The notes under the pieces were generated by a model that had not been told where the DNA came from, did not search any database, and saw only the letters and a list, made by a program, of their open reading frames with translations. A stretch of 64,000 bases of DNA from an uncultured Bacteroidales bacterium (GTDB taxonomy: Bacteria > Bacteroidota > Bacteroidia > Bacteroidales > F082). Where the stretch lies: assembly GCA_905234275.1 (NCBI GenBank), contig CAJOHD010000004.1, positions 186,001 to 250,000 of the forward strand, in the 5' to 3' direction. How positions within the stretch are numbered: position 1 is the first letter of the stretch; every line of letters starts with the position of its first letter. The translations under genes and the position numbers were made by a program. This document shows positions 21,788 to 46,143 of the stretch, piece after piece.

Positions 21788-21795
21788 CAAAAATA
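21788..21795 (-). promoter_or_regulatory. -7 box for the DUF2027-Smr gene
   Basis: The minus strand reads TATTTTTG, 16 nt upstream of the start at 21771. Confidence 0.6.
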
Positions 21796-21804
21796 CTAAA
21801 AATT

Positions 21805-21834
21805 GTCATTCCGAACGCAGCGAGGAACCTCATT
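21805..21834. repeat. Single arm of the GTCATTCCGA element
   Basis: GTCATTCCGAACGCAGCGAG, ending GAACCTCATT, a single arm of the interspersed palindromic family. Confidence 0.75.
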
Positions 21835-26879: not shown

Positions 26880-26957
26880 TGAGATTCCTCACACTTCGTG
26901 TTCGGAATGACAATGTATAATCACACTTGTCATTCCGAGCGCAGCGAGGAATCTCAT
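26880..26957. repeat. Paired palindromic element of the GTCATTCCGA family
   Basis: Arm one (TGAGATTCCTCACACTTCGT to GGAATGAC at 26911) and arm two (GTCATTCCGAGC at 26929 to GAATCTCAT at 26957) are inverted around an 18-nt loop. The end of arm two supplies the stop codon of mazG (26954-26956). Confidence 0.8.
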
Positions 26958-27727
26958 TCGGCCTGTTTTGCCTCATCCCACAGCGCCTCCATTTCATCAA
27001 GCGTCATATCAGCTACACTTTTACCAAGTTCTCTCGCCTTCTCCTCGATATATGTAAACCGCTTTTTAAACTTGGCATTTGCATGCTCCAGCGCCGTGTC
27101 GGCATTCACTTTTATGAACCTTGAATAGTTCACGAGAGCAAACAAAAGGTCACCAAATTCCTCGTCTTTCCGCTCTATCGGACCGTCGTTTTTCACCTCT
27201 TCCTGAAGCTCGTTCATCTCCTCCAAGACCTTCTCCCAGCATTCCTCCTTGTTAGGCCAGTCAAAACCCACTCCAGATGCTTTGTCGGTCATGCGATATG
27301 CTTTTAAAAGTGGCGGCAAACCTGCAGGAACACCGCCTAAAACGCTCTTGTTTCCTTCTTTCTTAATCTTAATCTTTTCCCAGTTTTCTAGCACTTCTTC
27401 GGCCGATTCCACCTTCACGTCGCCGTAAATATGCGGATGGCGTACGATAAGCTTGTCGCAAATACTGTTTATCACATCAGAGATATCAAACAAACCACGC
27501 TCATCAGCAATTCTTGCATAAAACACGATGTGCATTATCAAATCGCCAAGCTCTTTCTTAACATCTTGATAATCAGAAGCTAAAATCGCCTCACTCAACT
27601 CGTATGTCTCCTCAATGGTCAGATGACGCAAACTCTCAATAGTCTGTTTTTTATCCCAAGGACAGCCTTTTCTGAGGTCGTCCATAATGTCCAAAAGTCT
27701 CTTAAAAGCCTCTAATCGTTTATCCAT
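26954..27727 (-). CDS. mazG: Nucleoside triphosphate pyrophosphohydrolase MazG
   Basis: MazG hydrolyses NTPs and dNTPs to the monophosphate and pyrophosphate. The 257-residue protein carries two MazG domains: GCPWDKKQTIESLRHLTIEETYEL with EAIL and the ELGDLIMHIVFYA motif (residues 20-75) in the first, and EEVKNDGPIERKDEEFGDLLFALVNYSRF in the second, with the ExxE and ExxD metal sites. Its stop codon sits inside a palindromic repeat, so the last residues (EALWDEAKQAE) may be partly repeat-derived. Confidence 0.92.
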   Translation of the reverse strand: MDKRLEAFKRLLDIMDDLRKGCPWDKKQTIESLRHLTIEETYELSEAILASDYQDVKKELGDLIMHIVFYARIADERGLFDISDVINSICDKLIVRHPHIYGDVKVESAEEVLENWEKIKIKKEGNKSVLGGVPAGLPPLLKAYRMTDKASGVGFDWPNKEECWEKVLEEMNELQEEVKNDGPIERKDEEFGDLLFALVNYSRFIKVNADTALEHANAKFKKRFTYIEEKARELGKSVADMTLDEMEALWDEAKQAE

Positions 27728-27749: not shown

Positions 27750-27780
27750 CAAAATAGTTTTTAATAATTGCTTTTTTTAA

Positions 27781-27867
27781 AGATTTCTCCATTTCGCTCC
27801 GCTCCAGTCGAAATGACGCGCACACACTACGTCATTTCGAGCGAAACGAAGTGGAGTCGAGAAATCT
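27781..27867. repeat. Paired palindromic element, GTCATTTCGA variant
   Basis: Arms AGATTTCTCCATTTCGCTCC...GAAATGAC and GTCATTTCGAGCGAAACGAA...GAGAAATCT are inverted around a short loop, between mazG and the acyloxyacyl hydrolase-like gene. Confidence 0.8.
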
Positions 27868-27891
27868 TCAACTTTATATTTATTTTTTTCA

Positions 27892-43324: not shown

Positions 43325-44815
43325 TCAATTTTCGAGTTTAATTTGATAAATTGTTTTGGTTTTTTCTGAAATCTTGAATCTGTCGTCGATTCGATAACCG
43401 ACAATCCACACAATTCGGTCGTCGGCATCAGTTAAAACAAGGGTCGTTTTCTTTTGGAATGCGGTGAAATTCAAGTCGTTAAAGAAATCTGAGACAAGTT
43501 TGGTGCCGCGCATACCGAGAGGATGAAAACGATCGCCCTGCTGCCAAGTGCGGGTTTTCAAAGGAAGGTGAAGGGTGTCGTAATCCAACTGAGCAAGATT
43601 ATCGTTATCCTTTATCAGTAGGGACAAGGCATGCCTTGTCCGTACAGGTTGAATAGTATATTGCAATGACAAGGCATTATTCATTTTATTTAAATAAAGC
43701 GGGAAGACATCAATTGTTTCTTTCTCAATAACTAATTGATATTCATCAGAATAAAACTCTTTTCCTGGTTCACCATCGAGGGCTGCAAAAATCGATTCGC
43801 ATTGAGAGAAAGAAAAACCATAATCTCTAATCCATTCAAAAAGCAGCTGTATCCTACCACCGTCATTCCGAGTGTAGCGCAGCGAAATCGAGGAATCTCC
43901 TGCAAATGGAGATGCCTCTGTGTGCAGGAGATTTCTCCGCTCCACTCTCCTTTCTGTCGAGTTCCGGTCGAAATGACGTTTAGGAATTGAGTGCAAAACG
44001 CCATTTACTGTTTCAATTTGAGAAATTTTTTCCTTTAAAAGATCTCTATATAATTGATTTTCAGCAGCTAAATGATTAACAGACTCAAGGATTTTTTCTC
44101 TCGATTCAGGTTTGATGCCGTCGAAAACAGGCATCAGGTCGTGACGGATTTTATTGCGAAGATAAACTGTGTCGTTGTTGGTGCTGTCCTCGCGCCATTG
44201 GATGCCGTTTTCAATCGCAAAACTCTTGATATCTTCACGTGATGCCCACAGTAAAGGTCTGATATACATGCCGTTACAAGGCTGCATTGCTTTTAGGCCT
44301 TTGATGCCGGAACCTCGGAGAAGGTTGATGAAAAATGTCTCAATTTGATCGTCGGCATGGTGTGCCAAGGCTAATTTGTCGAAACGGAGATTTCTCCACT
44401 CGCTGCGATTGCATGATTCCTTATCTAAAAGGATTTCTCGACTACGCTCCGCTTCGCTCGAAATGACGTGGTGGTTTGCGTTGATCAAATCATCAAACCA
44501 GGCGTAGCGTAGCTCGCGAGCTGCCATTTCGACGGAAACCTTATTGTTCTCAACAAAATCCAAGGTGTCGAACTGGCGAACGAAAAGCTTCACTCCTACC
44601 CTTTCAGCGTATTCACGGACAAACTGCTCGTCGCCGTATGATTCTTTGCCGCGAAGATGAAAATTGCAGTGTGCGAAGGCTATGTCATAGCCGCCCCGCC
44701 TAAATAATTCCGCCAATACCATCGAGTCGACGCCTCCGCTTAGGGCAACGAGAATGCGGTCACCTTTATTAATAAGGTGATTATCAGAGATGTATTTGCG
44801 GAATTTTTCAATCAT
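43325..44815 (-). CDS. tilS: tRNA(Ile)-lysidine synthetase with repeat-derived insertions
   Basis: TilS converts the wobble C of tRNA-Ile2 (CAU) to lysidine with ATP and lysine, an essential step. The 496-residue protein shows the P-loop SGGVDS (residues 26-31) and AHHADDQIETFFINLLRG (151-168). Typical TilS proteins have about 430-450 residues; the excess matches three in-frame insertions from palindromic repeats: residues about 115-145 (43 nt before the AHHADD motif), about 280-318, and about 391-399. These regions read as charged, low-conservation peptides (e.g. SSEAERSREILLD). The frame stays open, so the gene is probably functional. It is transcribed separately from dsbD. Confidence 0.88.
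   Translation of the reverse strand: MIEKFRKYISDNHLINKGDRILVALSGGVDSMVLAELFRRGGYDIAFAHCNFHLRGKESYGDEQFVREYAERVGVKLFVRQFDTLDFVENNKVSVEMAARELRYAWFDDLINANHHVISSEAERSREILLDKESCNRSEWRNLRFDKLALAHHADDQIETFFINLLRGSGIKGLKAMQPCNGMYIRPLLWASREDIKSFAIENGIQWREDSTNNDTVYLRNKIRHDLMPVFDGIKPESREKILESVNHLAAENQLYRDLLKEKISQIETVNGVLHSIPKRHFDRNSTERRVERRNLLHTEASPFAGDSSISLRYTRNDGGRIQLLFEWIRDYGFSFSQCESIFAALDGEPGKEFYSDEYQLVIEKETIDVFPLYLNKMNNALSLQYTIQPVRTRHALSLLIKDNDNLAQLDYDTLHLPLKTRTWQQGDRFHPLGMRGTKLVSDFFNDLNFTAFQKKTTLVLTDADDRIVWIVGYRIDDRFKISEKTKTIYQIKLEN
43622..43641. repeat. 20-bp perfect palindrome inside tilS
   Basis: GGACAAGGCATGCCTTGTCC is a perfect palindrome within the C-terminal part of tilS, where the protein reads RTRHALSLLI. 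It resembles the GTAGGGACAAGGC...GTCCCTAC type of interspersed palindromes. Confidence 0.6.
43862..43977. repeat. Full palindromic element inserted in tilS
   Basis: It runs from GTCATTCCGAG at one end to CGAAATGAC at the other, with internal inverted arms GAGGAATCTCCTGCA and TGCAGGAGATTTCTC. It encodes about 38 residues (280-318) in the tilS frame without a stop. Confidence 0.8.
44386..44467. repeat. Palindromic element arm inserted in tilS
   Basis: GGAGATTTCTCCACTCGC...GGATTTCTCGACTACG...TCGAAATGAC lies in the tilS coding region just before the AHHADDQ motif, encoding about 28 residues (117-144) in frame. Confidence 0.8.
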
Positions 44816-44835
44816 TTACGTTATCGTTAATCATT

Positions 44836-44875
44836 ATGAGATTCCTCGACTTCACTTCGTTTCGCTCGGAATGAC
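44836..44875. repeat. Single arm of the GTCATTCCGA element upstream of tilS
   Basis: ATGAGATTCCTCGACTTCAC to GGAATGAC, in the intergenic region 21 nt before the tilS start. Confidence 0.7.
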
Positions 44876-44883
44876 AGGCGTGG

Positions 44884-45507: not shown

Positions 45508-46143
45508 TTATTTTTTAGGAGATTTCTCCACTACGCTTCGCTCCGGTCGAAATGACGTGTTGGAAGTTTTCCGTTTATGTTGAATTTTCTCGACGGAGAA
45601 GCCGAATTTGCCGATTTTTTGGCCTAAAGCGTAATATTTTCCGTGCGAATATGTTATCAAATCCGCCTGATTGAGTTGGAAAAGTCCAGTGCTCGGGTCG
45701 AAATATTTTTCATCACCGTGAACGGCAACGATTTCCGCCATAAACATATCGTGGGAGCCTAATTCTATGATTTCCATAACCTTACACTCGATATTGACAG
45801 GCGACTCCGCAATCATAGGAGCTTTAACCACCTCGGCCTGCTCAGGCGTGAGATGCATCTCCTTGAATTTGTTGTAGTCTCTTCCAGACCTTACTCCGCA
45901 CCAGTCGGTGGCTTTTGCCAAGGCTTCAGTAGTGAGATTGATCACAAATTCCTTATTTTTCGAGATAATTGCATGCGAATGGCGCTCTTTTCTGACCGAG
46001 ATATAGCACATCGGAGGGTCGGAGCACAAAATCCCTGTCCATGCCACCGTGATGATGTTGTAGTTTTCGGGGCTGTCGCCGCATGAGACCATCACCACAG
46101 GCAGTGGATAAAGCATCGTTCCGGGTTTAAAACTTCTTTTCAT
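45508..46143 (-). CDS. Flavin reductase-like (FMN-binding) domain protein with a repeat-derived C-terminus
   Basis: The 211-residue protein matches the DIM6/NTAB-like flavin reductase fold: PGTMLYPLPVVMVSCGD, NIITVAWTGILCSDPPMCYISVRKERHS (FMN and substrate site), NLTTEALAKATDWCGVRSG, HDMFMAEIVAVHGDE. It probably binds FMN and reduces it with NAD(P)H. Family members end near VEKIQHKRK; here a palindromic element adds about 16 residues (TSNTSFRPERSVVEKSPKK), so the C-terminus may be non-native. Its -7 box lies only 4 nt upstream of the ATG. Confidence 0.75.
   Translation of the reverse strand: MKRSFKPGTMLYPLPVVMVSCGDSPENYNIITVAWTGILCSDPPMCYISVRKERHSHAIISKNKEFVINLTTEALAKATDWCGVRSGRDYNKFKEMHLTPEQAEVVKAPMIAESPVNIECKVMEIIELGSHDMFMAEIVAVHGDEKYFDPSTGLFQLNQADLITYSHGKYYALGQKIGKFGFSVEKIQHKRKTSNTSFRPERSVVEKSPKK
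45518..45556. repeat. Palindromic element arm forming the C-terminus of the flavin reductase-like gene
   Basis: GGAGATTTCTCCACTACGCT to TCGAAATGAC, with the gene's stop a few codons beyond it. Confidence 0.75.

Follow-up and report, generated by a model that had tools for sequence, protein, structure and literature searches.

In-frame palindromic repeats of the CGTC type in tilS of a rumen Bacteroidales genome and its relatives

How does the gene for tRNA(Ile)-lysidine synthetase come to carry palindromic repeats within an open reading frame? The question arises in the window analyzed here, a stretch of 64,000 nucleotides from a rumen Bacteroidales MAG of 2.58 Mb (G000), in which tilS (43325-44815, minus strand) codes for 496 residues and stays open through all of its inserts. 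Lysidine synthetase is known in general as an essential enzyme and is presumably essential in this organism too. An earlier note on this DNA had reported palindromic elements in frame in an open tilS, and we confirmed its reading of the DNA. Element A (43861-43978), a CGTC-tagged REP dimer of 118 bp, has two oppositely oriented REP arms, with CGTC at each outer end, and codes for residues ~280-319 in the interdomain linker (hotspot H2). Element B (44386-44468, minus strand) codes for residues ~115-142 in the loop ahead of the HHADDQxET motif of TilS (hotspot H1), and element C (43622-43641), a perfect 20-bp palindrome (GGACAAGGCATGCCTTGTCC), for residues ~391-399 (hotspot H3). All are in frame, as the note had it, but its description as three palindromic repeats needs amending, as B comprises two REP units arranged head to tail, of which the second is truncated, and C belongs to a different repeat family than A and B, found at 13 places in G000 within 2 mismatches.

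The identity of the host protein was supported by profile and structure matches. The 496-residue ORF scored 166 bits against TIGR02432, the TilS N-terminal equivalog (cut-off, 93.6), and TIGR02433 and PF11734 both detected the C-terminal domain, TilS_C, above their cut-offs. Its AlphaFold model, with a mean pLDDT of 84.8, matched the solved TilS structures 2e89 (Z, 29.5; 300 residues; 2.4 Å) and 3a2k (Z, 26.0; 423 residues; 7.4 Å). The stretches with a pLDDT under 50 (residues 115-136, 298-316, and 379-383) lay within or next to the three inserts, which are predicted to form disordered loops. In the four species having insert A in common, the pN/pS ratio of the insert was 0.93, against 0.11 to 0.25 in its flanks. 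No purifying selection was detectable on the insert A peptide, while the enzyme is under such selection, and we infer that the inserts are translated and neutral. One gene with three inserts might also be a tilS copy in decay, the inserts lying in a pseudogene. We rejected this reading as extremely improbable, since the frame is open and keeps the residues invariant in 50 TilS proteins, the gene is the sole full copy in a genome reported to be 100% complete, and purifying selection on the flanks is strong.

We then compared TilS across genomes of the same genus and named records, the relatives including records named Candidatus Limimorpha. Sister species without an insert lacked the DNA and the peptide together, and in the species examined REP-type peptides occurred at H1 and H2 only where repeat DNA, intact or degenerate, was present. 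Insert B was absent from L017, L016, L015, L005, and L018, where the aligned stretch has 18 or 19 residues versus 48, and was present in a degenerate form in L003 and L004. The insert A dimer was common to L063, L064, and L065 and absent from L003, L004, L015, L069, L070, and L073. Some "empty" sites (KRHFDR in L003, L015, and L070) retained 10 to 12 bases matching the REP end, which could mean either that an insert was once present and has been lost or that the target itself resembles that end. Element C occupied H3 in L001, L003, L015, and others; in sisters without it, H3 has a different sequence of nearly equal length, so element C replaced sequence rather than simply lengthening the protein. 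Repeats thus stand in frame at three TilS loops, each of them absent in some sister species. The protein is longer than usual, but the excess of ~50 to 60 residues over a typical TilS given by the earlier note is to be corrected, relatives without A and B having mostly ~426 to 455 residues versus 496.

Repeats are known to cause misassembly, and every genome of the genus seems to be a MAG, so a short-read metagenome assembly could have misjoined repeats into tilS. This too was rejected, and we regard it as scarcely credible: MAGs from different studies (L063, L064, and L065) share the inserts with several percent divergence, the net length keeps the frame in every relative examined save possibly one contig (L021, two frames), and the inserts measure only about 30 to 120 bp.

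The abundance of the repeat in the genome was determined against a reversed control. The REP arm was found at 315 places versus 30 for the control when up to 3 mismatches were allowed, and at 227 places versus 1 in G000 with at most 1 mismatch, and its abundance is therefore far above chance. The genome total of ~230 to 315 arms comprises single copies as well as dimers whose outer ends carry CGTC; of 14 close pairs, 13 had CGTC at both outer ends. The consensus of 64 distinct arms (cGTCATTTCGAccGaAgCGaAGcGaAgTgGAGaaatc) carries the CGTC tag, after which the stem opens with complementary A-T (ATTTC...GAAAT and ATTCC...GGAAT). For the short form, a 5-bp stem plus a 2-bp inner stem across a GA/GA inner loop is predicted, with a 3-base loop and a TCTC/CTCC tail; the longer arm, when one copy is folded to minimum energy, pairs in a different way. 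Selection of the arms for open frames was considered and rejected, the excess of arms open in frame over shuffles being only modest (0.67 versus 0.58), with one frame mostly closed.

Several further copies lie in the window. The arm sequence had been described as scattered, with 26880-26957 as an example, and a copy was indeed found there, its arm at 26928. Copies of the ATTCCGAGCGCAGCGAGGAAT type are located at 26917-26958 (plus strand), at the 3' end of the ORF 26954-27727, and in intergenic DNA at 21793-21834 (plus strand). Two adjacent back-to-back copies occupy 27772-27870, with arm starts at 27818 (minus) and 27830 (plus), and an intergenic copy (44830-44876, minus strand) lies just upstream of the tilS start codon. 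A copy at 45511-45557 (minus strand) gives the C terminus SFRPERSVVEKSPKK of a flavin reductase ORF (45508-46143), whose last ~16 residues are REP sequence; REP-made C termini were likewise seen in L050, a BspA-type LRR protein, and in L042.

Where does such a repeat belong? Bacteroidetes are among the bacteria for which the CGTC-REP superfamily has been described (Di Nocera, De Gregorio and Rocco 2013; PMC3733652), and RPE-4 and RPE-6 of Rickettsia belong to it; its members carry a tag, CGTC or TGTC/CCTC, at one end. Its four described families, CGTC-1 to CGTC-4, have a stem of 8 to 9 bp, a loop of 4 to 5 bases, and a tail that is mostly CCA. The repeat in G000 shares with the superfamily the CGTC/TGTC tag and, next to it, a palindrome that begins with AT, a dispersed occurrence in hundreds of copies, mostly intergenic, as singles and inverted dimers, and the presence of some copies inside genes, DNA-repair and tRNA-modification genes among them. 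In both cases a dedicated transposase is wanting, and the lack of an intact Y1 enzyme described below agrees with this. Unlike CGTC-1 to CGTC-4 as characterized there, the present repeat has a stem of 5 bp plus a short inner stem (or a longer, imperfect one) and the tail TCTC/CTCC, and none of the four families fits it in stem, loop, and tail. It is best called, on these sequence features, a further CGTC-type REP that is not a member of the four described families. The suggestion of a possibly undescribed family is right only in part, as the tag places the repeat in the superfamily. Our literature search found no description of this repeat in Bacteroidales, which given the limited coverage of the search is weak evidence.

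In-frame palindromes in genes are an event of a known kind. The palindromic elements of Rickettsia (RPEs; Ogata et al. 2000, 2002), ~150 bp long in the first description as reviewed in PMC10969869, are likewise translated in frame in unrelated genes at positions compatible with the fold. They belong to another lineage, and the likeness is one at the level of the superfamily, the comparison being by mode of action only. Within these bounds the parallel with RPEs drawn in the earlier note is well supported, both by the empty sites in sister species and by in-frame copies in other genes, and it extends a phenomenon best known from Rickettsia to gut Bacteroidales.

These other genes were sought in a sample comprising contig C4 and 30 REP loci of G000, with gene identity assigned by Pfam. 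Pfam-supported genes with a REP in frame coded for MutS2 (a dimer at residues 336-372, just before the Walker A strand), PcrA/UvrD (residues 698-711, in a linker), a RecD-like AAA_30/UvrD_C_2 helicase (residues 225-238), a class-V aminotransferase resembling SufS (residues 141-155), CobW (residues 260-274, interdomain), TatD (residues 38-51), and Lnt (residues 170-183). Relatives were compared at two of these loci, mutS2 and uvrD. The MutS2 site was empty (GENNRILVISG or similar) in G014, G025, G034, and G009 and held the dimer in G000, G016, and G005, while the UvrD linker contained REP-derived peptides in some sisters and none in others. About 10 of 67 sampled arms (~15%) lay inside Pfam-supported genes, whereas 88% of contig C4 lies in ORFs of at least 150 residues; insertion into genes therefore looks strongly selected against, yet it occurs. 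In an ORF named HtpG-like from its sequence (G000:C4:154161-156278), the predicted N-terminal part overlaps a REP pair, and the start codon probably lies further downstream.

The reading we favor, with a probability of roughly 0.8, is that a mobile CGTC-tagged palindromic repeat gave rise to elements A and B, copies of it that were inserted in frame and are tolerated as disordered charged loops. New REP copies would land widely in the genome, and most of those entering genes would be removed by selection, as the ratio of ~15% of arms in genes to ~88% ORF suggests. The copies that survive would be those situated in a flexible loop, with a net length divisible by three and an open frame, and their translation would yield disordered, charged peptides in loops where the enzyme tolerates them. 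In this way, selfish-looking repeat DNA would be read as protein and would add loops to enzymes of rumen and gut bacteria that are normal in other respects.

The occupancy of H2 across the genus was then examined. In L006, L008, and L009, the linker holds GTCATTGCGAGG-type elements unrelated to the REP of G000, and in L014, L022, L026, and L027, it holds CCTGAGCCTGTCGAAGG-type elements. An element of the latter type stands in reverse orientation at H2 in L013, and in L012 one repeat copy is nested inside another, which is best explained as a DNA insertion; the reversed and nested copies both speak against a conserved peptide motif. A CCTGAGCYTGTCGAARGG family is present at H2 in G003, G020, G023, G027, G032, and G017, and copies of TCCCTGAGCYTGTCGAARGG numbered 47 to 166 in these six genomes versus 0 to 4 in G000, G008, G019, G022, and G033. 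A TCATTGCGAGGAGCG family occupies H2 in G008, G019, and G033, with 23 to 28 copies per genome versus 0 in G000. The family occupying H2 was thus abundant in its own genome wherever copies were counted. When the hotspot columns were left out of the alignment for a TilS tree, that tree required at least 21 state changes at H2, or 12 for presence and absence alone, counts that are rough because tilS is a mosaic between species. The mosaic structure was observed over the whole gene in L063 and L066, where identical or nearly identical stretches adjoin others that differ by 25%, a sign of recombination. In L019 (G009), in-frame repeats of yet another class, the LQDYKTTRLQDY type, occur at two further TilS loops, one in the N-terminal domain and one near H3.

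A loop of one protein filled by several unrelated repeat families across a genus looks new, as we found no earlier description of it; the portions of PMC3733652 drawn on here contain no such hotspot, save for REPs that lie at roughly one site of recB in Xanthomonas. The hotspot amounts to a natural experiment, in which one loop has been filled, emptied, and refilled by unrelated families in dozens of related species, with empty-site relatives present. It also bears on whether the inserts are adaptive, charged loops that alter tRNA binding or the regulation of TilS and of repair proteins being kept for that reason. The H2 dimer does stay in frame in four diverged species, and mutS2, uvrD, and the RecD-like helicase are among the genes hit, echoing the excess in repair genes reported in PMC3733652. 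We nevertheless hold adaptation to be quite improbable, as the insert has a pN/pS of 0.93 and is predicted to be disordered, unrelated families in both orientations occupy the same place in other species, and many close sisters do without the inserts.

Arms and spacers of the tolerated insertions were next compared at the DNA level. In insert A of tilS, the arms of clearly diverged pairs differed by 8 to 10% (0.08 to 0.10) and the spacers by 31 to 46%; in the close pair L063 and L064, both were nearly identical. In the mutS2 dimer, the arms differed by 2.5 to 3.8% and the spacer by 13 to 50%, third positions of the whole gene differing by 26 to 37%. The contrast reached, for example, 0.04 versus 0.50 in mutS2, with P values down to 7.6e-8. 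In both genes, then, the spacer diverges like neutral DNA while the arms stay alike, and the arms of element C, which co-vary between species (AAGGC/GCCTT versus AACGC/GCGTT), follow the same theme. This contrast inside genes also looks new, with no earlier description found. Odd arm features and a downstream GGTG, common to L001, L063, and L065, make it less likely that one subfamily inserted repeatedly at one place. What most likely keeps the arms alike is conversion, either between the two of them or from copies elsewhere in the genome; selection acting on the nucleic acid is the other reading of the contrast.

The latter would make the repeats RNA or DNA signals within the gene, either mRNA hairpins that tune translation or protein-binding sites, with translation as a side effect. 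It is consistent with the conserved arms and drifting spacers of tilS and mutS2, with the strong predicted hairpins (-46 to -58 kcal/mol), and with the co-varying arms of element C. It seems unlikely to us all the same, as the same gene manages without the element in close sisters, the repeats vary in position and family from one species to another, and conversion from genomic copies would account for the conservation of the arms without any local function. More tentatively, and with somewhat less than even confidence, we propose that arms in essential genes are still being rewritten, with other genomic copies or the opposite arm as the template. Selfish DNA would then dictate part of the TilS and MutS2 sequences, and CGTC repeats would spread without a Y1 transposase.

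As for the enzyme that moves the repeats, no intact Y1/RAYT transposase was found in G000, the one Y1 match being a truncated ORF of 118 residues that has a different repeat, rather than CGTC REPs, on its flanks. Among eight REP-rich genomes, Y1 was absent from G005, G014, G016, G031, G034, and G062, truncated in G000, and single in G025; it was thus absent or broken in 7 of 8, compared with a Y1 match in 26 of 32 REP-poor genomes. The difference (Fisher P = 6e-4) is overstated, since the REP-rich genomes are closely related and, in several cases, incomplete, and the rank correlation by itself was weak (P = 0.10). A RAYT as the mover was rejected on the grounds of the truncated match without flanking REPs and the rarity of Y1 in REP-rich genomes, and these sequence comparisons speak against a resident RAYT. 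The dimers of REPs in opposite orientation resemble the REPIN/RAYT system (PMC3116915, PMC2817692), where such dimers act as small mobile units. That system involves GTAG REPs moved by Y1, unlike the CGTC-tagged repeats described here, for which an intact Y1 is missing in 7 of 8 REP-rich genomes. The question in the REP field of what moves CGTC-tagged REPs is sharpened by the fact that the usual candidate enzyme is missing from the genomes in which they are most abundant. No target-site duplication was seen by eye at mutS2 or tilS; at the few sites available, targets that resemble the REP end were seen (GATTTCGA at H1 and H2 and AATGAC at mutS2), and insertion may prefer such targets. A truncated Y1/RAYT-like ORF with a foreign tail, likely a remnant, was noted at L062:1459-1815, near a different repeat of the GGGGCAACGCCCC type.

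The hotspots also show how repeat DNA turns into protein sequence and can seed longer repeat tracts. At H1 of the L064 TilS, tandem copies of a PVISTESHAH unit derive from the REP insert. At H3 of L083 and of L099 (Candidatus Limimorpha caballi), a unit of ~12 residues (SGAIPETSSEST) is repeated in tandem behind a REP insert (GTCATTGCGACCGGAGCGCAGCGG...), the stretch having 95 to 119 residues (119 in L099) versus 38 in related species; here the repeat insert seems to have seeded the longer tract.
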